A DNA stretch of 58,473 bases from Alphaproteobacteria bacterium (GTDB taxonomy: Bacteria; Pseudomonadota; Alphaproteobacteria; CAAGCB01; CAG-977): contig JAFZYY010000016.1 in assembly GCA_017616015.1 (NCBI GenBank), forward strand, positions 1 to 58,473. Reading direction: 5' to 3'. Of the stretch, positions 12,772 through 46,171 are shown piece by piece. Under the pieces are notes generated by a model. The model was not told the DNA's origin, ran no database searches, and worked only from the letters and a program-made list of their open reading frames with translations. Each line of letters opens with the position of its first letter. Position 1 is the stretch's first letter. Position numbers and translations under genes: made by a program.

Positions 12772-12789
12772 GTTTTGCGATATTTCAGA

Positions 12790-12820
12790 AAATCCTCGCT
12801 TAATCGCGGGGATTTTTTTT
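12790..12820 (+). terminator. Terminator of thrS-infC
   Basis: AATCCTCGC, loop TTAATC, GCGGGGATT then a run of eight T. It ends the infC transcript and isolates the cysteine-rich locus downstream. Confidence 0.85.
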
Positions 12821-12857: not shown

Positions 12858-12879
12858 ATATACCCCCACCATCTATAAT
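12858..12879 (+). promoter_or_regulatory. Promoter motif of the first cysteine-rich unit
   Basis: ATATACCCCC (12858-12867), four unmatched bases, then TC and TATAAT (12874-12879). The same ATATACCCCC and TCTATAA at identical spacing occur at 17130-17151 before the third cysteine-rich gene. TATAAT is a good -10, but no canonical -35 is visible, so the C-tract may bind a regulator. The start codon is 72 bases past the -10. Confidence 0.55.
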
Positions 12880-12950
12880 TAATTTTTCTTTTTTTATAAA
12901 CAGGTATAAGATTAAAGCGTGGTAGTTTGTGATAGGGAGGGAGCAACGCC

Positions 12951-15239
12951 ATGAAGAAACGTTTGTTTTTATTAGCGGGACTACTTATTTTAGTTGCTAA
13001 TGGGGTTGAAGCCCGATCCTATAAACTGGGACGCGATTTGTATTCAAACGGGGACGATCTTGTTAATCCCAGCAATTTTAAAGATGTAGGAAATGCGCCG
13101 AATTCTTCCGGCTGTACTGGCGGAAAGGTTTACAATCCGGTTATAAGAAAATGCGTAAATCCCGGATGCGGCGAATTTTGTAGCGACTGTGTTTCAACGG
13201 ATCAGGGCAATTACTGTGCCGGCTGTGTCGGTGAAGGGGAAAAGAAAACCTATTTAAGCCCCTCAGAAGGTTTGTGCCATTATTGTCAGAACGGTCCCGA
13301 AGGAATCAGCAACTGCGATCTGTGTACAAAAAACAATCTGATTCTTAAGTGTGAAGCGTGTGGTAACAACCTTACTTTGCAAAACAACCAATGTGTTCCG
13401 GAAACCTGTCCGCAGGGGCAAGTGTTTAACACGAGTTTAGGCAAATGTGTAAATGAAGGGTGCGGCAACGGTTGCGCCGACTGCGTGTCGACGGACAGAG
13501 GCTTTTTCTGTGCGGAATGCGAAGCGGGACGAGGTTTCTACTTGTCTGAGGACGGTGTGGAAAGCGCCAACGGAACATGCATGATTTGTCCGAAAACATA
13601 CCATTCGGACGACGAAGAAGGCAGATCGCCGTCTAAGTGTGTCAAATGCCCTTACAATAACTCGGCGTTTCAGGGGCCGTGGTCTCCGGCCGGCAGCACT
13701 CTGGCTTCCTGTTCGTTCTGCGATGTAGGGTGCAGAAATTGCTCGAACACGCAACACCAGTGCATCGAATGTTACGAAGGATATACAAAAGAAGGCAACA
13801 GCTGTGTAGCGCAAGGTTGCTCGGAAGGTCAGGTCTATCACCCGGTTTTGCAGGATTGCGTGCCCGCAGGTTGCGAAAACAACTGCACCTATTGTGTAAA
13901 CGATGCTTATTGTTATACCTGTCCGGCGGGAACATATTTGTCTTCAACGGGGACGTGCCAGTCTTGTCCGAAAGGGACGTATACTGCCACCGCCAACAGA
14001 CAAACGGCCTGCACGCCCTGCGAAAAGGGAACATATAACAACGCGACGGGATCCACGTCTTGCACACCCTGTGACGCAGGAAAGTATTCGTCCGCTGTGG
14101 GTAGTCAGAGCTGTTCTAACTGCCCGTCCGGCAAATATTCCAAATCCGGCGCGGAACAATGTGAAACTTGCTCCACTTTAATCCCGCATTGCACAACGTG
14201 TACGTATAATGGCGGAGCTCTGAAATGCACGGCATGCGGTTCAGGTTATAACGTTCAGAACGGGGAATGCGTAGAAAATCCGTGTAGCGCGGGACAGGCC
14301 TATAACTCTGCGATCGGCAAATGCGTAACGGCCGGTTGTTCGACATGCAACGGCGTCGCCGGCGCATGTCAAACCGATGAAGCCGGTCAGAGTTATTGCT
14401 CGAAATGCGCCAGCTCTTCTTATCTGAGCCGCGATGACGGAGCGTGTCACACGTGTTCTTCCGCGATAGATCATTGCTCGGCCTGCAGTATGTCTCAAAA
14501 CGGGACAATCATCTGCTCTTCGTGCACGTCGGGATTTGAACCGTCAGGAACGGGAACAAGTTGTGTTTCGTCAAGCTGCGACAGCGGATACTTTTTGAGC
14601 CCCTGCACAGGTAACTGCGCTGCTTGTCCGGCGGCATGCGGAACCTGTAGCGCGCCCGCTTCATGCGGCACCAACAAAAGTGCGGCAATTTGTTCGACCT
14701 GCAGTGCCGGATACACCGGTCCGTCAAATGGACGATGCTATAAAAACTGTAGCTCCGGACAATATTGGAGCTATTCAACCAACAGCTGTCAGTCCTGTCC
14801 GACACACTGCTCGAACTGTTATCATAACTGTCCGTACGCAGGCTATGTCAGTATTGAGAGATGCTCTACTACCTGTACCGGTTGCGACAGCGCCGATTAT
14901 CAGGTGTCAAACGGGCAGTGCGTTGAAAAGCACGGCTGTACCAGCGGCCAGATATGGCACCCGACTCTGCAGTTATGCATAACGTCAAACTGCGTCGCCA
15001 ACTGTAAATCCTATGTACAGGATAACAAATACCAGACGTGTTACTGTGCGGAATGCAATCCGGGATATACGTTAAATAACCGCGGTGAGTGCGTGGCCTG
15101 CTCGACCATAACCAGTCATTGCGCTACCTGCCAGACAGAGGTGAGCAAGGGAGTAATCTCTTTGGTTTGTATAGGGTGTGACAACAATTACAATTTGTCA
15201 GGCGGCTCTTGTGTCGCGCAGCAACAAAATGCTTATTAA
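12951..15239 (+). CDS. Secreted cysteine-rich repeat protein A (762 aa)
   Basis: Not a recognised bacterial family. A Sec signal peptide (about 1-21, ending NGVEA) is followed by mature N-terminus RSYKLGRDLYSNG. The rest consists of cysteine-rich modules of about 45-50 residues, with signatures such as GKVYNPVIRKCVNPGC and YCAGC, mixed with shorter repeats of the CPAGTYxSxxGxxxC type. The pattern resembles furin, TNFR, ephrin-receptor-like (GCC2/GCC3) and Giardia VSP-type modules of eukaryotic surface proteins. No C-terminal membrane segment, sorting signal or enzyme domain is visible. Extracellular disulfide-bonded protein is the likely form. The start has GGGAGGGAG seven bases upstream. It probably shares a transcript with protein B. 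Confidence 0.8.
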   Translation: MKKRLFLLAGLLILVANGVEARSYKLGRDLYSNGDDLVNPSNFKDVGNAPNSSGCTGGKVYNPVIRKCVNPGCGEFCSDCVSTDQGNYCAGCVGEGEKKTYLSPSEGLCHYCQNGPEGISNCDLCTKNNLILKCEACGNNLTLQNNQCVPETCPQGQVFNTSLGKCVNEGCGNGCADCVSTDRGFFCAECEAGRGFYLSEDGVESANGTCMICPKTYHSDDEEGRSPSKCVKCPYNNSAFQGPWSPAGSTLASCSFCDVGCRNCSNTQHQCIECYEGYTKEGNSCVAQGCSEGQVYHPVLQDCVPAGCENNCTYCVNDAYCYTCPAGTYLSSTGTCQSCPKGTYTATANRQTACTPCEKGTYNNATGSTSCTPCDAGKYSSAVGSQSCSNCPSGKYSKSGAEQCETCSTLIPHCTTCTYNGGALKCTACGSGYNVQNGECVENPCSAGQAYNSAIGKCVTAGCSTCNGVAGACQTDEAGQSYCSKCASSSYLSRDDGACHTCSSAIDHCSACSMSQNGTIICSSCTSGFEPSGTGTSCVSSSCDSGYFLSPCTGNCAACPAACGTCSAPASCGTNKSAAICSTCSAGYTGPSNGRCYKNCSSGQYWSYSTNSCQSCPTHCSNCYHNCPYAGYVSIERCSTTCTGCDSADYQVSNGQCVEKHGCTSGQIWHPTLQLCITSNCVANCKSYVQDNKYQTCYCAECNPGYTLNNRGECVACSTITSHCATCQTEVSKGVISLVCIGCDNNYNLSGGSCVAQQQNAY

Positions 15240-15273
15240 AGATAACAACGCGTAAAGCGGAAAGGATTTTACC

Positions 15274-17034
15274 ATGAAAAAATACATATACTTTTTGACA
15301 TGTTTATGTTTTTTAGGCTTATGCGGTTCCGCTGAAGCGGATACAGTCAAAGTTGGGCGTAAAGGTGTCTTTACCACAACGGATAAAATAAAAGCGTCTG
15401 TATCTTCGTGCTCACCCGGACAAGTCCGAGTAGGAGGTGTCTGTATTTATCCTGACGCTCCGGTTACCCCGCAATCCTGTCCGAGCGGAAAGGTGTGGGC
15501 AACCGATAGAGCGGCTTGCATCAGTTGCCCCGATAATTGCTCTTCCTGTACGGAAACATGTAGCGGAACGACGTCGGGCAAATATTGCACCAGAAACGGA
15601 ATATCTCAGATTCCTTATACATATACGTGCACGAACTGTGATCCCGGATTTGCTTTGAATAACACAACCAAAATATGCGAGCACTCTTGTCCGGCCGGAA
15701 AGGTTTGGAGCGAAAAAGCCGGGGACTGCGTGACTTCCTGTCCCGCGGGACAAATTCTTCACCCGTCTCTGGAACACTGCGTACCGGAAGGCGGTTGCTT
15801 GTCGCCGTACTGCACTTCCTGTCCTGATTTGCAAGGTTGCTTGGCTTGCCAGGAAGGGTTTGCTTTGAACAATGACGGCGTTTGTGCTTCAACATGCGGT
15901 GACGGCGAAGTTTATAATCCGGTCATTCAGGAATGCGTTACGCCTGGGTGCGGAGAAGCCGATTTTTGTTCGAACTGCGTTTCAACGCCGCAGGGAGATT
16001 ACTGCGCCGCATGCGATTCCGAACATGTGGTTGCGGGAAAGGTTTATCTGTCCCCGACCGATGGTTTGTGTCATGACTGCGGATCAGGGCCTCAAAATCC
16101 GGATCTGAATCTTCATTGCTCTTATTGCGGAAACCTGGGAAGAAATGTTGTATGCCGCGGCTGTGAAGACGGATATACGCTGAATGCGGACGGAACATGC
16201 ACGTCGCCTGTTCCTTCGTGCCCGGCCGGACAATACCACAGTATTTCAGCTTGTGCGGATTGCCCGGAGAATTGCGATATCTGCAACGGCAGACTATATA
16301 CTCTGACCGACTATGGTGTCGGTGAAGTTGTGGAAGAAAGCGTGCGTTGTTCCGTCTGTGCGGAAGGTTTCAGATTGTCCGAAGACTTCTTATGCGTACC
16401 CGAAGACACACCTGTTTGCGGCGTCGGTGAATACACGCAATATGACGGTACGTGTGCTCCTTGTCCCGATGATTGCAATTCCTGTGAAGAAACATGCGCC
16501 GACGGGTATTATCTTGTGGCTAACGGGCAGTGCGGTAGAGGCAAAAGCGCCAGCAGGAACTCTTCCATTGTTTCCTGTGTTGCCTGCAAGCACAATATTG
16601 ACGCCGAATGCGTAAATATTTTTGGAGATGCTAATCCGTGGCAGGGAACAAACGGCGGGTATTATTGGTGCGCTGACGGAACCCATTCCATTCCTGCGGG
16701 AAAGACCTGTTGGGAAGGATATGGCCATTATCAAACGATAACGGTTCCCAGCGGAACGCCGTCTTATACGGCGGTCAGCCTCCGTTTCTGGGGAAATACG
16801 GCTGTCAACGGCAGTTTCTCGGCCAACTATCTGTCCGTCGGTTTGGATTGGGGACAGAAGACATCGCCGGCCACATTTACATTTAATAACAATGTGACTG
16901 TCAATATTCTCTTTATCCTGCAAGGGGATAAAGCAGTCTTTAACGGCGGTCTCAGCGGACCTTCAAGATGTCTTTATCAATACGGAGCCGGCAACTGTAC
17001 CTGTTCCGGCAGTTCGCCGAAGATATGTCAGTAA
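15274..17034 (+). CDS. Secreted cysteine-rich repeat protein B (586 aa)
   Basis: Paralogue of protein A, 34 bases downstream with AAAGGA before its ATG and no terminator between them. Signal peptide about 1-22 (ending GSAEA), mature N-terminus DTVKVGRKGVF. Cysteine-rich modules cover about residues 45-440. The block with GEVYNPVIQECVTPGC, YLSPTDGLCHDC and a GYTLNADGTC ending closely parallels the start of protein A. Unlike A and C, it ends in a cysteine-poor domain of about 130 residues (about 455-586), rich in Gly, Ser, Thr and aromatics (AVSLRFWGNTAVNG, LSVGLDWGQK), which looks beta-rich and could be the binding head. Function unknown. Confidence 0.8.
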   Translation: MKKYIYFLTCLCFLGLCGSAEADTVKVGRKGVFTTTDKIKASVSSCSPGQVRVGGVCIYPDAPVTPQSCPSGKVWATDRAACISCPDNCSSCTETCSGTTSGKYCTRNGISQIPYTYTCTNCDPGFALNNTTKICEHSCPAGKVWSEKAGDCVTSCPAGQILHPSLEHCVPEGGCLSPYCTSCPDLQGCLACQEGFALNNDGVCASTCGDGEVYNPVIQECVTPGCGEADFCSNCVSTPQGDYCAACDSEHVVAGKVYLSPTDGLCHDCGSGPQNPDLNLHCSYCGNLGRNVVCRGCEDGYTLNADGTCTSPVPSCPAGQYHSISACADCPENCDICNGRLYTLTDYGVGEVVEESVRCSVCAEGFRLSEDFLCVPEDTPVCGVGEYTQYDGTCAPCPDDCNSCEETCADGYYLVANGQCGRGKSASRNSSIVSCVACKHNIDAECVNIFGDANPWQGTNGGYYWCADGTHSIPAGKTCWEGYGHYQTITVPSGTPSYTAVSLRFWGNTAVNGSFSANYLSVGLDWGQKTSPATFTFNNNVTVNILFILQGDKAVFNGGLSGPSRCLYQYGAGNCTCSGSSPKICQ

Positions 17035-17060
17035 GACCGCAAAAACGGTAACATAAATTT

Positions 17061-17100
17061 AAAACAGCCGCGAAGACGATTTTTTCGCGGCTGTTTCTTT
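17061..17100 (+). terminator. Terminator after protein B
   Basis: AAACAGCCGCGAA and TTCGCGGCTGTTT form a thirteen-pair stem, followed by CTTTTT. It ends the A-B transcript, so protein C has its own promoter. Confidence 0.9.
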
Positions 17101-17129
17101 TAAAAATTGTTTTTTTTATTTATCCGACG

Positions 17130-17151
17130 ATATACCCCCGCGCTCTATAAC
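17130..17151 (+). promoter_or_regulatory. Shared upstream motif before protein C
   Basis: ATATACCCCC (17130-17139), four bases, then TC and TATAAC (17146-17151). It matches the motif before protein A in sequence and spacing. Because a consensus-like sigma-70 promoter follows at 17165, the motif may be an upstream regulator site rather than the promoter itself. Confidence 0.55.
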
Positions 17152-17164
17152 TGTTTAGACTTTG

Positions 17165-17193
17165 TTGACTTTCCTTGAAAACGCGTATATTAT
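17165..17193 (+). promoter_or_regulatory. Sigma-70 promoter of protein C
   Basis: TTGACT (17165-17170), 17-base spacer, TATTAT (17188-17193). About 32 bases of leader would precede the ATG, which has AGGGAGGG seven bases upstream. Confidence 0.65.
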
Positions 17194-17232
17194 CTAAAAT
17201 AAAATAAGTTTGAGAAGAGGGAGGGCTCAATC

Positions 17233-20200
17233 ATGAAAAAAGTACTATTTTTGGGGTGTTTGCTGTTCTTTAGCTTAAGCACTTCTGTTCAGGCAAAAAC
17301 GGCCAAATTAGGACGTGATATCCTTTCCTCTTCGGAAGACGAATATAAAGTTTTTTCGTGTTCCGTCGCTAATTGCGCGACCTGCGACAAGAACGGCAAC
17401 TGTAAACAATGTCGTCCCGGATATGAATTAAGATATAACGGGTGTTTATCAATATGCCCCGGAACGAAAGTCTGGAGTACGGCGTTAAACGGATGCGTCT
17501 CTCCCGGTTGCGACTCGAACTGCGCTACATGTAATTCTTCTCCGTCTTTCTGTAAAGTATGTAAACCCGGATACACTTTGAATTCGAACGGTTCATGCGT
17601 AGCTCAATGTACCGCTATAGAGAACTGTGACATTTGTGAAAACGGAAAAGTATGTACAAAATGCAAAACCAACTACACATGGAATGAAGGCACAAAAGAA
17701 TGCATTACCGGCTGTGCGAACGGCACGATTTATCACCCGACGCTGAAAAAATGCGTTGCGAAAGGGTGTTCCGCACACTGCATTACCTGCAATTCTTCCG
17801 GTAACGAAGATCTTTACTGCTCCGAATGTGAGGGAGGTTATCAGATAGGTTCCAGCGGCGCTTGCGTCAGCTCCTGTCAGAATAATCAGGAATATAACAG
17901 TGCGGACAGACAATGTTATCCGGCTTGTCAAGAAGAAAACACGACTTACAGCCCGATTGTTGAAAAATGCGTTCCCAGAGGCTGTATAGAACACTGCACC
18001 GAATGCTCCGCCGGTTATTGTTCGGGTTGCGAAGCGGGATACGGTTTGAACGAAAACGGCGTCTGCGCGGCTAAATGCGGCGAAGGCTTTGAATGGAACG
18101 CCGAAGTCCATGAATGCTATCTTAACTGCGCAGAAGGGCAAGTTTATCATCCGGGACTGGAAAGATGTGTTCAGGCCGGTTGCGGCGAAAATTGCACTAC
18201 CTGCAGCACCTATAAAGAGGCGAATTACTGTGCCGCCTGCGAACAGGGATATGTTTTAAATCCGTCGGACGGTCGTTGCCTTTCCAAGTGCCCTGAAGAC
18301 AGAGTCTGGGTGGAAGAGCATGAACGCTGTGAAATTTCCTGCGATTCCGGCTTTGTCTATCATCAGCCTGCCGATAAATGTCTGAAAAATTGTCAGTTTG
18401 TCGAACACTGCTCGCAGTGCCTTGATTATGCGGTGGCTGTAAATGAAGATGTTTGTACGGTTTGTGCGTCCGGTTATGAATTAGACGAAAACGGCGATTG
18501 CGCGCCGATCGTCTGCGAACCCGGACAGCACTACAGCTTTGAGGAAGCCAGTTGCCAGAGCTGTTCCGGCGTTGATATAAACTGCACGGCCTGCACGACA
18601 GATCTCGGCGATCCTTCGGCGGATAGCAAATATGCCTGTACGGCGTGTGTCAGCGGTTATCATGTGGAAAACGGATTGTGCGTTGAAGACACGCCCGTCT
18701 GTTCGCCGGGACAACACTTAAATGTTCTGACGAATACATGCGTAGCCTGCGCGGCAGGAACGTATTCCAATACGGAAGGCGCCGAGTCCTGCACGGACTG
18801 TGCGGCGGGAACCTATTCCGGCGAAGGTGCGACTTCCTGCACGCCGTGCGCGGCGGGATCGTATTCGTCCGTAGCGGGTTCGTCCGTCTGTACGCCTTGC
18901 GAAGCGGGAACGAAAGCTAACGAAGGTTCTTCGTCCTGCGCGCCCTGTGATGCGGGAACGTATTCCGGAGCGGGCGCGGCGGTCTGCGAAAACTGTCCGG
19001 CGGGAACTTATGCCGGCGTTGGCGCGACTTCCTGCACGCCTTGCGAACCGGGGACATTCTCTTCCGCAGTGAAATCGTCGACCTGCACGCCGTGTGCGGC
19101 GGGAACGTATTCCGCTGAACGTGCGACGGGCTGTTCGAATTGTCCTGCGGGATCTTATTCTGCGGAACGCGCGACGAACTGTTCGTTGTGTCCTGCGGGA
19201 ACGTATTCAGCCGAAACGGCGGCAACCTCTTCAGCGGTTTGCCAGTCTTGTCCGGCAGGTAAGAATTCTTCGGAAGGGGCTGCGGCCTGCGGGGATTGCC
19301 CGACGGGTTGCTCCGCCTGCTCGGGAAGCTCATGTTCGGACTGCTTCGACGGATTTGAACTGCAAGGCACATCGTGCGTCAGAGTATGCCCGGCGGGTCA
19401 GTACCTGAACAACGGAATTTGCACGAATTGTACGGCGGGAACGTATTCCACGGGCGGAACAGTTACGGAATGCACGCCGTGTCCGGCGGGAACGCGCTCT
19501 TCAGCGGGCGCCGGATCCTGTGTGGACTGCGCGGCGGGAACGTATTCTGCGGCGGGTTCTGAAGTATGCTCTGTCTGCGACGCGGGAACGTATTCTGCGG
19601 CCAGAGCTTCCACCTGCACGCAGTGCGCGGCGGGAAGATATTCTGCGGAAGGCGCTTCGTCCTGTACGGAATGCTCGTCGGGAACCTATGCCGAAAACGC
19701 CGGATCAGCCTCTTGTACGCCGTGTCCGGCAGGCAAGAATTCCGGAACGGGGGCTTCGTCCTGCTCGAATTGTCCGGAGGGTTGTTCTGCCTGCACGGTC
19801 AGTGCCTGCACGGAATGCTCCGGCGGTTACACGCTGCAGGGCGGATCCTGCATAAAGACATGTAATGCCGGCGAACGTCTGAACAACGGCTCTTGCGTAA
19901 CCTGTGCGGCGGGAACGTATTCCGCGGGCGGAACGGTTACGGAATGCACGCCCTGCGCGGCAAGCAAATATTCCGCGGCGGGAGCCTCTTCCTGTGAGGA
20001 TTGCCCGACCGGCTGTTCGGCCTGCACGTCTATGAGCTCCTGCACGTCTTGCTCCAGCGGTTACGTACTGCAAAACAATACATGCGTTGCTTGTGCTACG
20101 GCCTTCCCGAACTGCACGTCATGTTCCGGAAACGTTTGCTCGACCTGCGCTGACGGATACGTATTACAGGGTGGATCCTGCGTAAGAACGTGTCCGGCGG

Positions 20201-22695
20201 GACAATATGTAAGCAACGGAAACTGCGTGAACTGCGCGGCGGGAAGATACTCCGCGGGCGGAACGGGTACGGAATGTTCGCTCTGCGCGGCGGGATCTTA
20301 TTCCGCGGAAGGCGCTTCGTCCTGCTCGACCTGTCCGACGGGAACGTATGCGTCCGGAACCGGAAACACGAGTTGCGCGAAATGCCCGGCGGGAACGGCT
20401 TCAAATGCGACGGGAGCAACTTCCAGCGCAACCTGTGTGGCTTGCGGAGCGGGAATGAATTCCGCGGAAGGATCGGCTACCTGCACGGCCTGCCCGAGCG
20501 GTTGCACGGCATGTTCCGGAAATACTTGCACGTCCTGCGCAAGCGGATATGAATTAAAGAACGGATCGTGCTCGATCTGTCCGGCGGGACAATATCTGAA
20601 GAACGGCTCTTGCACAAATTGCGAGGCGGGAACGTATTCGTCCTCGGCGGGGGCGACTTCTTGCGCGACCTGTCCGGCAGGAAAATATTCCGCGGCCGGT
20701 GCGTCGACCTGCACACAGTGCACGGCGGGAACATATTCCGCGGCCGGTGCGTCGACCTGCACGCAGTGCACGGCGGGAACGTATTCCAGCGCTAACGGAG
20801 CGACTTCCTGCTCGAGCTGTCAGGCCGGAAAATGGTCCAGCGCGGGTGCGACTTCCTGCGCAACGTGTACGGATAACTGTTCAGTATGCGCGACGACGAC
20901 CACTTGCGGAACGTGCGCCAGCGGATACAGATTGGAAGGCGGAGCTTGCGTGAAGAACTGTCAGGCGGGCGAATACCTGAAGAACGGCGTTTGCACGGCC
21001 TGCGCGGCGGGAAGCTATTCCAATACCACAACCGCGACAGAATGCACGCCTTGCCCGGCGGGACAATATACTTCAAGCACGGGTAGCACGTCCTGCTCGC
21101 CTTGTCCGACGGGACAATATGCGTCCGGCACGGGCAACAGCTCTTGTTCAACCTGTTCGGCGGGAACATATGCGTCCGGCACGGGCAACAGCTCCTGCGC
21201 GTCCTGCGGATCCGGAAAATACTCTGAAGCGGGGGCTTCGTCCTGCTCGAATTGTCCGGCAGAAGCGCCTGAGAAACTCTGCGGCGGTTCATCGGCTTGC
21301 CTGAGCCAGTGCTCGGCAAACAGCTGTCCGGCAGGACAATTCCTGTCAGCCGGATCCTGTCAAGCCTGTGGGGCTGGATCGTACTCCGCGGGCGGCACGG
21401 CGACATCTTGCACGGGCTGTTCGGCGGGAACGTACGCGTCCGGCACAGGAAACAGCTCTTGCACGGGCTGTTCGGCGGGAACGTACTCCTCCGCGACGTG
21501 GGCAACCTCCAGCTCGACTTGCACGGCTTGTCCGGCGGGATCTTCCGCTTCCGGCACAGGCAACAGCTCTTGCACGCAATGTGCGGCGGGCACTTATGCT
21601 TCCGGCACGGGCAATACGTCCTGCGCGTCCTGCGGATCCGGAAGATACGCCAGAGGCACCGGAAACACTGCCTGCGCAACCTGCAGCGCGAATTGTAAGT
21701 CCGGATACTGCTCGACCACACAAGGATGCACGCAGTGCAACAGCGGATACACGGCATCGAACGGCACGTGTGTAGCTTCGGGCTGCAACCCCGGATACTA
21801 TAAGAAGAACGGCTCATGCTTGCAGTGCGCGGCGGGTACTTACTCCGCGGGCGGAAGCGCAACGTCTTGCACGCAGTGCGCGGCAGGAAAATACTCTGCG
21901 GCCGGTGCATCGTCCTGCTCGACCTGCTCGGCGGGAACATATTCCACAGCCGGTTCCGGATCTTGCACACAGTGCGCGGCAGGAAAATACTCTGCGGCCG
22001 GTGCGTCGTCCTGCTCGTCTTGCGCTTCAGGAAAATGGTCTAATGCGGGGGCTTCGTCCTGCTCGAGCTGTCCGACACAAGACGCAGAAGTATCGACTTG
22101 CACAGGAAACTGCGCGACACAGTGCAATATTGTGAACTCTTGCTCGGGCGGATATTACCTGAGTGTTGGTAAGTGCGTACAATGCGCGGCGGGAACGTAC
22201 TCGGCCGGCGGCGCTTCGAAGAATTGCTCGGCCTGCGGATCCGGAAAATGGTCCAATGCGGGGGCTTCGTCCTGCTCAAATTGTCCGAGCTTTGAGTCTG
22301 AACAGGCAGGTTCATGCACCGGAAATTGCGCGACGCAATGCGCCGCAACCAGCTGTTCTGCCGGACAATACCTGCAGGGCGGCGTATGCAAATCCTGTGC
22401 GGCCGGAACCTGGTCTAACGGCGGAAGTGCGGCGTCTTGCTCGCAATGCAAAGCTAATTGCGACCTTTGTGCGTCAACGACCGCTTGCGCGACCTGCAGT
22501 ACCGGATATTATTACGATAGCGGCAGTTGCACGGCATTGGGGACAGGGAAAAACACATGTGTATCGTCAACCGGTGTTGCAAATTGTAGCGCATGTACCG
22601 GAAGTAAGTGTACGGCCTGCCCGAGCGGATATAATGCTACGAGCTCCAGCAAAGGTGTAACGGCTTGTACGGCAAAATCCAGATCTGCTAGTTAA
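17233..22695 (+). CDS. Giant secreted cysteine-rich repeat protein C (1820 aa)
   Basis: Largest gene in the window. Signal peptide about 1-22 (ending SVQA), mature N-terminus KTAKLGRDILSSSED. About residues 40-500 hold VSP/EGF-like modules with GQVYHPGLERCVQAGC-type starts. From about residue 500 to 1790 the protein is built from 16-18-residue repeats (CAAGTYSxxGAxSCTxC), resembling the GCC2/GCC3 ephrin-receptor-like domain. These are interrupted every few copies by linker modules of about 40 residues (GCSAC...GYxLQGGSC...CPAGQYLNNG). In sampled stretches about one residue in seven is cysteine, always in regular pairs. No transmembrane segment, anchor or enzyme domain. Internal DNA repeats suggest copy-number change by recombination. 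Function unknown; an adhesin, coat or stalk protein is plausible. Confidence 0.8.
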   Translation: MKKVLFLGCLLFFSLSTSVQAKTAKLGRDILSSSEDEYKVFSCSVANCATCDKNGNCKQCRPGYELRYNGCLSICPGTKVWSTALNGCVSPGCDSNCATCNSSPSFCKVCKPGYTLNSNGSCVAQCTAIENCDICENGKVCTKCKTNYTWNEGTKECITGCANGTIYHPTLKKCVAKGCSAHCITCNSSGNEDLYCSECEGGYQIGSSGACVSSCQNNQEYNSADRQCYPACQEENTTYSPIVEKCVPRGCIEHCTECSAGYCSGCEAGYGLNENGVCAAKCGEGFEWNAEVHECYLNCAEGQVYHPGLERCVQAGCGENCTTCSTYKEANYCAACEQGYVLNPSDGRCLSKCPEDRVWVEEHERCEISCDSGFVYHQPADKCLKNCQFVEHCSQCLDYAVAVNEDVCTVCASGYELDENGDCAPIVCEPGQHYSFEEASCQSCSGVDINCTACTTDLGDPSADSKYACTACVSGYHVENGLCVEDTPVCSPGQHLNVLTNTCVACAAGTYSNTEGAESCTDCAAGTYSGEGATSCTPCAAGSYSSVAGSSVCTPCEAGTKANEGSSSCAPCDAGTYSGAGAAVCENCPAGTYAGVGATSCTPCEPGTFSSAVKSSTCTPCAAGTYSAERATGCSNCPAGSYSAERATNCSLCPAGTYSAETAATSSAVCQSCPAGKNSSEGAAACGDCPTGCSACSGSSCSDCFDGFELQGTSCVRVCPAGQYLNNGICTNCTAGTYSTGGTVTECTPCPAGTRSSAGAGSCVDCAAGTYSAAGSEVCSVCDAGTYSAARASTCTQCAAGRYSAEGASSCTECSSGTYAENAGSASCTPCPAGKNSGTGASSCSNCPEGCSACTVSACTECSGGYTLQGGSCIKTCNAGERLNNGSCVTCAAGTYSAGGTVTECTPCAASKYSAAGASSCEDCPTGCSACTSMSSCTSCSSGYVLQNNTCVACATAFPNCTSCSGNVCSTCADGYVLQGGSCVRTCPAGQYVSNGNCVNCAAGRYSAGGTGTECSLCAAGSYSAEGASSCSTCPTGTYASGTGNTSCAKCPAGTASNATGATSSATCVACGAGMNSAEGSATCTACPSGCTACSGNTCTSCASGYELKNGSCSICPAGQYLKNGSCTNCEAGTYSSSAGATSCATCPAGKYSAAGASTCTQCTAGTYSAAGASTCTQCTAGTYSSANGATSCSSCQAGKWSSAGATSCATCTDNCSVCATTTTCGTCASGYRLEGGACVKNCQAGEYLKNGVCTACAAGSYSNTTTATECTPCPAGQYTSSTGSTSCSPCPTGQYASGTGNSSCSTCSAGTYASGTGNSSCASCGSGKYSEAGASSCSNCPAEAPEKLCGGSSACLSQCSANSCPAGQFLSAGSCQACGAGSYSAGGTATSCTGCSAGTYASGTGNSSCTGCSAGTYSSATWATSSSTCTACPAGSSASGTGNSSCTQCAAGTYASGTGNTSCASCGSGRYARGTGNTACATCSANCKSGYCSTTQGCTQCNSGYTASNGTCVASGCNPGYYKKNGSCLQCAAGTYSAGGSATSCTQCAAGKYSAAGASSCSTCSAGTYSTAGSGSCTQCAAGKYSAAGASSCSSCASGKWSNAGASSCSSCPTQDAEVSTCTGNCATQCNIVNSCSGGYYLSVGKCVQCAAGTYSAGGASKNCSACGSGKWSNAGASSCSNCPSFESEQAGSCTGNCATQCAATSCSAGQYLQGGVCKSCAAGTWSNGGSAASCSQCKANCDLCASTTACATCSTGYYYDSGSCTALGTGKNTCVSSTGVANCSACTGSKCTACPSGYNATSSSKGVTACTAKSRSAS
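18740..22440 (+). repeat. Coding repeat array inside protein C
   Basis: Degenerate units of about 48-54 bases encode the C-x2-C-x-A-G-x-Y-S pattern. The DNA repeats GCGGCGGGAACGTATTC with few changes many times, and longer blocks recur, such as the one encoding YASGTGNSSC. The array is the longest repeat structure in the window and a likely site of slippage or unequal exchange. Confidence 0.8.
20686..20781 (+). repeat. Near-perfect 48-base tandem duplication
   Basis: Units 20686-20733 and 20734-20781 differ at only about two silent positions (ACA/ACG codons) and encode the same 16 residues, starting YSAAGASTCTQC. The low silent divergence points to a recent duplication or gene conversion within protein C (codons 1152-1183). 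Confidence 0.85.
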
Positions 22696-22713: not shown

Positions 22714-22748
22714 ACAGCCGCGGAGAATTTTCTCCGCGGTTGTTTTTT
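22714..22748 (+). terminator. Terminator after protein C
   Basis: ACAGCCGCGGAGA and TCTCCGCGGTTGT form a stem around a short AT loop, followed by seven T. It resembles the terminator after protein B, also built on an ACAGCCGCG arm. Confidence 0.9.
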
Positions 22749-45829: not shown

Positions 45830-45872
45830 GAATAAAAATAACGGGACACTTCTGTTGCTAGGCAAGTCCCCG
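45830..45872 (-). terminator. Terminator of ssrA
   Basis: Minus strand: CGGGGACTT pairs with AAGTGTCCCG around a CCTAGCAACAG-type loop, followed by TTATTTTTATT. Leak-through would reach sspB 19 bases later. Confidence 0.65.
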
Positions 45873-46137
45873 CCCCACCCGAAGCGCTCAAGCCTCAGGG
45901 ATTAAGTTCGGTTTTCCGGCCGCATTACGCAGCGAGAGCAACCTGAGTGCGATTATCATTCGCATTTAAAGTTATAGCCCGATAACGGCGGTACAATGCC
46001 GGATACAAACTTTACCTTTACTACGCGCGTCGATCCTGTTTCGTCCCCAAAGTTTGGTGGAGACGCCGGGTACCGCCCCCGGGTCCGCTACGCCTATTCC
46101 ATAAAGCGTTTAGCATCATAGCCGGATTGCTCCGGCA
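45842..46137 (-). ncRNA. ssrA: tmRNA, circularly permuted two-piece form
   Basis: Rescues stalled ribosomes. On the minus strand the acceptor piece comes first and contains a hairpin with GCAA tetraloop, T-arm CCGGG...CCCGG and the 3' end CGTCTCCACCA at 46055. After only about six bases the coding piece begins with GGGGACGAAACAGG at 46048. GGGGACG pairs with CGTCTCC, including a G-U third pair as in tRNA-Ala. The tag frame (45925-45963) encodes ANDNRTQVALAA then a stop. This permuted order is typical of alphaproteobacteria. Exact processed ends are not visible. Confidence 0.93.
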
Positions 46138-46143
46138 CTTTCC

Positions 46144-46171
46144 ATTATAGAACGGAAATCCGTTTTCGCAA
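46144..46171 (-). promoter_or_regulatory. Sigma-70 promoter of ssrA
   Basis: Minus strand: TTGCGA (46166-46171), 16-base spacer, TATAAT (46144-46149), just upstream of the first tmRNA hairpin. Confidence 0.7.

Follow-up and report, generated by a model that had tools for sequence, protein, structure and literature searches.

KLGR proteins, a family of secreted cysteine-rich proteins usually encoded by gene pairs and associated with poly-C promoter tracts in an order of Alphaproteobacteria

The best solved relative, by sequence, of the proteins considered here is MST1 of the Chlamydomonas mastigoneme, a eukaryotic protein which also carries nine Ig-like domains and a hydroxyproline helix. The cysteine-rich domain of MST1 is rod-shaped, 26 nm long and braced by 26 disulfides; it dimerises via an interface of more than 7,400 square angstroms and makes interstrand contacts in the filament (PMC11015965). 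For the Ephrin_rec_like domain itself, an early eukaryotic origin and an isolated actinobacterial case were described (PMC6993872). Single modules of a similar fold occur in ELAPOR1, TNFR and EphA2, which are receptor ectodomains with transmembrane anchors. Cysteine-rich repeated modules also make up the large variable family of VSP proteins in Giardia, and coats of this large, variable, cysteine-rich type are seen as a speciality of protists. An uncultured bacterial order that multiplies eukaryote-type rod modules, encodes them in fixed gene pairs and seemingly sets them behind slippery promoters would have arrived at surface variation independently. Switching of a surface protein by a poly-C tract in its promoter is established for Neisseria opc (PMC3960869), whose product is a beta-barrel outer-membrane protein.

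The window, i.e., the whole stretch of DNA analysed here, comprises 58,473 nt and is the entire contig C32 of a 2.1 Mb genome (G000) with 98% completeness. An earlier note had read from it three consecutive genes for Sec-exported cysteine-rich proteins of 762, 586 and 1820 residues, and both the open reading frames and the signal peptides were confirmed. On the plus strand, gene 1 occupies positions 12951–15239 (762 aa, 102 Cys), gene 2 positions 15274–17034 (586 aa, 63 Cys) and gene 3 positions 17233–22695 (1820 aa, 251 Cys), each with a GA-rich ribosome-binding site. Cysteine comprises 11–14% of the residues, and CxxC, found 36, 16 and 95 times in genes 1, 2 and 3, is the dominant spacing, far above chance. 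The claim that nearly every segment is modular needs correction for gene 2, in which about 110 residues near the C-terminus are nearly free of cysteine and are not modular. No second hydrophobic segment was found in the three proteins (the maximal 19-residue Kyte–Doolittle mean outside the signal peptide is 1.05, 0.95 and 0.90), in agreement with the absence of a membrane anchor asserted before.

The strong terminators reported around the locus were recovered as three plus-strand hairpins: the infC terminator at the upstream edge (12787–12820; RNA fold −17.5 kcal/mol, z −3.96), a second one in the interval between genes 2 and 3 (17062–17097; −23.0 kcal/mol, z −5.06) and a third one 3′ of gene 3 (22714–22743; −24.0 kcal/mol, z −8.8). 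Given their positions, genes 1 and 2, which are spaced by 34 nt, form one unit, and gene 3 is separate. The flanking genes are ordinary bacterial ones, infC and thrS on one side and the M15 peptidase, LpoB and LPP20 genes on the other, and there is no secretion system among these neighbours. A plasmid origin was considered for the contig, and the search gave no match. Elsewhere in the window (45834–46147, minus strand) there is a permuted (two-piece) tmRNA, which is usual for alphaproteobacteria.

The resemblance to eukaryotic modules is supported by both sequence and fold searches, which returned Ephrin_rec_like, TNFR and growth-factor-receptor repeats. At the level of the whole protein, a Pfam cut-off is exceeded by gene 3 alone: hmmscan detected 17 stretches of Ephrin_rec_like (PF07699) with E 2.5e-38 and 130.1 bits against the curated cut-off of 23.1, along with a TNFR_ELAPOR1 match (E 6.6e-10). 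The module array spans positions 18709–22248 (plus strand) in tandem units of 48–51 nt. Gene 1 gave only a weak NCD3G match and gene 2 no Pfam match in hmmscan, neither having an Ephrin_rec_like entry at E ≤ 0.01; in a six-frame genome search, Ephrin_rec_like stretches in gene 1 exceeded the cut-off, reaching up to 36.3 bits. The NCBIfam search gave no match. Of the similarities suggested in the earlier note, the profile searches upheld the Ephrin_rec_like one for gene 3, but not the VSP one (PF03302), for which genes 1–3 had no match at E ≤ 0.01. One relative (contig C4 of genome G004) gave a VSP match that is sub-threshold at E 5.1e-7 with 29.3 bits against a cut-off of 31.4. The window proteins also lack the C-terminal membrane anchor of Giardia VSPs, and the likely control of the family would be promoter slippage.

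MST1 was matched by gene 3 with E 4.2e-33 and by gene 1 with E 5.6e-13. Residues 402–700 of gene 3 were modelled with AlphaFold from an input alignment of six stretches of gene 3 itself; the model has pLDDT 82 overall and above 90 across most repeats. Among known structures it comes closest to the rod of MST1, with 31% identity, Z 12.9 and an rmsd of 5.7 across 233 residues. The single-module fold is shared with ELAPOR1 (Foldseek E 1e-5), TNFR and EphA2, with Z of 6–9 for the short matches. If the MST1 rise per residue applies, the whole gene 3 array (about 1,180 residues) would span about 45 nm. The C-terminal 206 aa of gene 2 were modelled with pLDDT 41, and their structure is not interpretable. 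In contrast to MST1, the bacterial proteins are short-tagged arrays forming multigene families; the Pfam scan of gene 3 contained no tandem Ig-like domains, and the cysteine-rich modules start within 20 residues of the signal peptide.

The very high cysteine content might also be taken to indicate a secreted store of cysteine that binds metal or buffers oxidants instead of forming a structural coat. We consider this most improbable because the regular CxxC ladder is modelled with good confidence as short hairpins, similarly to disulfide-bonded rods of known structure, and because a redox or metal store would need neither the diversity nor the mosaicism and promoter tracts of these genes.

When the starts of the three window genes were aligned with those of four genes from a second locus of the same genome (L021), an invariant K-x-G-R was revealed right after the signal peptide. 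In the window it is KLGR at residues 25–28 of gene 1 (13023–13034), KVGR at residues 26–29 of gene 2 (15349–15360) and KLGR at residues 25–28 of gene 3 (17305–17316), all on the plus strand. The commonest form of the signature is A-K-x-[VF]-K-[LIV]-G-R; sometimes it is preceded by a spacer of 10–15 residues, and in the more distant genera its final position is not constant. A profile search followed by reading revealed cysteine-rich genes with a KLGR-type start in all 12 genomes sampled from the order (the same set represents one family and three genera). The number of KLGR genes in these genomes is about 42 (43 candidates from the script, with one false start), and seven of them belong to the window genome, four being located outside the window. 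All three window genes fit this family in having the signal peptide, K[LVI]GR and the cysteine-rich body.

This distribution bears on the question of whether we are dealing with genes recently acquired from a eukaryote or with a eukaryotic contaminant contig, as the otherwise eukaryotic origin described for the domain family (PMC6993872) might suggest. The contaminant was rejected: the signal peptides, ribosome-binding sites and terminators are bacterial, the locus lies between infC/thrS and lpoB, and relatives with the KLGR signature are present in each of the 12 genomes. For the same reasons any transfer must be old, and a recent acquisition appears extremely unlikely.

KLGR genes are usually the second members of two-gene modules. 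For 25 of the 43 candidates, the same strand carries a cysteine-rich open reading frame whose end is less than 60 nt away on the upstream side; in one case this upstream partner is itself a KLGR gene (gene 1 before gene 2 of the window). About 24 KLGR genes (“type B”) are located 3–41 nt behind a second secreted cysteine-rich gene (“type A”), which has a signal peptide but no KLGR and often ends with C-P-x(n)-G-C-C-C and a few further residues. The lengths range from about 98 to 1610 aa. In the second locus of the window genome, four A-B pairs follow one another. The window genes are all B-type and have no A partner: no A gene precedes genes 1 and 3, and gene 2 is preceded by gene 1. It is well supported that the KLGR proteins form a family of secreted disulfide rods, usually encoded as A-B pairs and having poly-C promoters in the relatives of the window locus. 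The literature searched on bacterial cysteine-rich surface proteins and Ephrin_rec_like proteins contained no account of this family, which appears to be previously undescribed. Nor was there a match to a characterised bacterial family with a known role, which the earlier note had named as a refuting result. Its other refuting result, absence from related genomes together with misassembly, did not occur either, as the relatives possess such proteins. That note did not include the KLGR signature, the two-gene modules, the promoter element considered below or the other locus of this genome.

The A-B organisation, repeated in tandem and dispersed, could also suit a secreted antagonist in which A and B are partners directed against competitors or eukaryotic grazers (e.g., as decoy ligands) and the rods serve as a carrier, and the likeness of the modules to eukaryotic receptor repeats is in line with this. 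However, A and B have the same composition, which is not that of a toxin and its immunity protein, and the Pfam scans revealed no enzymatic, toxic or immunity domains, so we regard such an activity as improbable.

In the class, PF07699 is rare, as had been anticipated for such modules in bacteria: of a class-wide sample of 385 genomes, nine contain it at E ≤ 1e-6, and four of these nine are from this order. Among the listed open reading frames of the PF07699 genomes from other orders (G378, G100, G049, G368 and G194), no KLGR beside a signal peptide was seen. Within the order, the modules show a high turnover of site and sequence between species, their insertion sites differing from species to species. 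The site behind infC is a recurrent one, occupied in the window genome, in G002 by an A-B pair (L232:9454-11025, contig C86, minus strand) and in G006 by a poly-C promoter at the contig end (end of L234, contig C15); in G003, G004, G005 and others this site harbours other genes. Since contig ends fall in or near modules in G001 and G006, the module counts are lower bounds.

Mosaic structure of the copies was found in two relatives. In G001, the modules on contigs C22 and C26 are 94% identical in the promoter and gene start, have no collinear match over about 900 nt in the middle and are again 90% identical over the last 1 kb or so, including gene B. In G004 (contig C10), two genes are identical in their upstream DNA and alike over the first 60 or so residues, after which they diverge. 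Recombination between copies would be expected to leave such a pattern. Behind an intact KLGR gene on the same G004 contig (L105:7590-9546), there are 5′-truncated, frameshifted and degenerate copies of this gene with no signal peptide, which resemble decayed or silent cassettes. The suggestion that the proteins are “possibly large and variable” is thereby borne out by dispersal, mosaicism and the poly-C promoters of the relatives.

These promoters were recognised ahead of modules in G001, G004 and G006, with tracts of 9–18 C at a distance of about 75–120 nt from the start codon. The tracts have a common sequence context: TTGTKACASTTTTRTTAAAAATATA, the tract, and ATATYTTTATTG or similar. In G008, a run of 12 G lies between TTGACA and TAGGATAAAAT. 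Nine of the 15 tracts of at least 12 C in G001, among the matches listed (about 100 of 112 windows), are in the conserved context before A or B genes; under random placement, the probability of such clustering would be negligible, although the copies share descent and are not independent. Near-identical copies differ in tract length (13, 14 and 15), which suggests slippage; the lengths come from assemblies, one per species, and assembly error could also produce such differences. The C runs in the promoters of several relatives look like on/off switches, comparable to the variable tract of Neisseria opc. The difference is that here one promoter element accompanies many dispersed genes for secreted cysteine-rich rods. 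Some further tracts of C13–C16 in G001 lie outside the KLGR promoter context (L192, L199, L201, L203 and L206), in part within or before unrelated genes, and are possibly further contingency loci.

In the window, the corresponding element is short. The promoter-like sequence ATATACCCCC-ACCATC-TATAAT upstream of gene 1 (12858–12880, plus strand) represents a C5 version of the family poly-C promoter, and ATATACCCCC-GCGCTC-TATAAC upstream of gene 3 (17130–17152, plus strand) aligns with the poly-C promoters of the relatives. ATATACCCCC occurs twice in the 58 kb window, only before genes 1 and 3 (zero occurrences are expected in shuffles), and a search of the entire 2.1 Mb genome for the longer promoter pattern, allowing up to two mismatches, gave no sites other than these. 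The elements lie at −101 and −103, the same distance as in the relatives, and have a good −10. Their C5 tracts are below the 9 or so C needed to slip, compared to C9–C18 in the relatives, which argues against present-day switching here; the switch is short or locked.

The window genome has five tracts of at least 9 C. In the second locus, a single member has a long tract nearby, C9, located 183 nt upstream of its A gene in a different context. Two other tracts lie a few codons past the start of a gene: C10 in an Acyl_transf_3 gene (MNNQYTPPPIS..; L218:4837-5904, contig C15) and C9 in a glycerophosphotransferase gene (MNNANRLIPPPVYK..; L219:2151-3509, contig C25). A tract in this position is the classic layout of translational phase variation, to which these two surface polysaccharide genes are likely subject, as judged by tract position. 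Their presence makes slippage control plausible in the window species.

The same data may be explained by stable adhesin or matrix rods, i.e., a constitutive extracellular fibre for attachment to host mucus or protists, in which the C tracts are incidental or modulate the promoter but do not switch it. The fold close to the filament-forming MST1, the window promoters with their short C5 and good −10, and the fact that no conserved receptor-like domain is present agree with such rods. However, 9–18 C in a conserved promoter context, with lengths differing between near-identical copies, are a hallmark of contingency loci, and the strong turnover of sites and sequence between species also speaks against a stable fibre, which we therefore hold to be doubtful.

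We prefer to consider the KLGR proteins as a lineage-specific, modular and phase-variable family of secreted rods or filaments that forms a changeable surface coat, a reading to which we assign a probability of about 55%. Each protein would comprise a cleaved signal peptide, a short K-[LVI]-G-R tag at the mature N-terminus and cysteine-rich modules in varying number. In gene 3, these modules would mostly be CxxC units of about 17 residues, folded like the cysteine-rich rods of MST1, Eph and TNFR. Typically, gene A would be directly followed by gene B, and the dispersed modules may recombine with each other. Since a poly-C tract belongs to the conserved promoter in several species, slippage should switch single modules on and off. 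The rods would be oxidised in the periplasm, carried outside and held via their KLGR end, with a lateral packing like that of mastigonemes. The outcome would be a combinatorial, switchable fibrous coat altering recognition by phages, grazers or host defences. The window copy is likely a constitutively transcribed member of the family, because its genes are B-type with no A partners and have a short, probably stable C5.

A more far-reaching scenario, which we put forward only tentatively, is a bacterial counterpart of the antigenic-variation coats of eukaryotes: paired disulfide rods from dozens of dispersed A-B modules would co-assemble into filaments on the surface, each module being switched by poly-C slippage in a common promoter element and reshuffled by recombination, with the window locus as a locked member. 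The promoter tracts make the switching directly testable from existing metagenome reads.

Sec by itself delivers proteins to the periplasm, and DsbA-like proteins are present in all seven genomes tested. A secretin was also found in each of these seven genomes; the single one of the window genome belongs to a type IVb pilus cluster (PilN/PilO/PilQ/PilR-like) that neighbours a VirB4-like gene. The KLGR tag provides a concrete lead to a step of export or anchoring. In the cluster itself (L217; contig C22, 112500–132400), genes for TcpQ, secretin, PilO, the T2SSE ATPase and T2SSF adjoin the VirB4-like ATPase, so that it is a mixed type IVb pilus/type IV secretion cluster. In other small-genome alphaproteobacteria, long proteins with pseudopilin-like N-termini (..EMLGTLAIMGV..) are encoded at L136:105-1472 (G100) and L134:13253-14455 (G378). 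The former has 21 cysteines along with Ephrin-like repeats, and its pseudopilin-like start perhaps reflects a different export route for similar modules.
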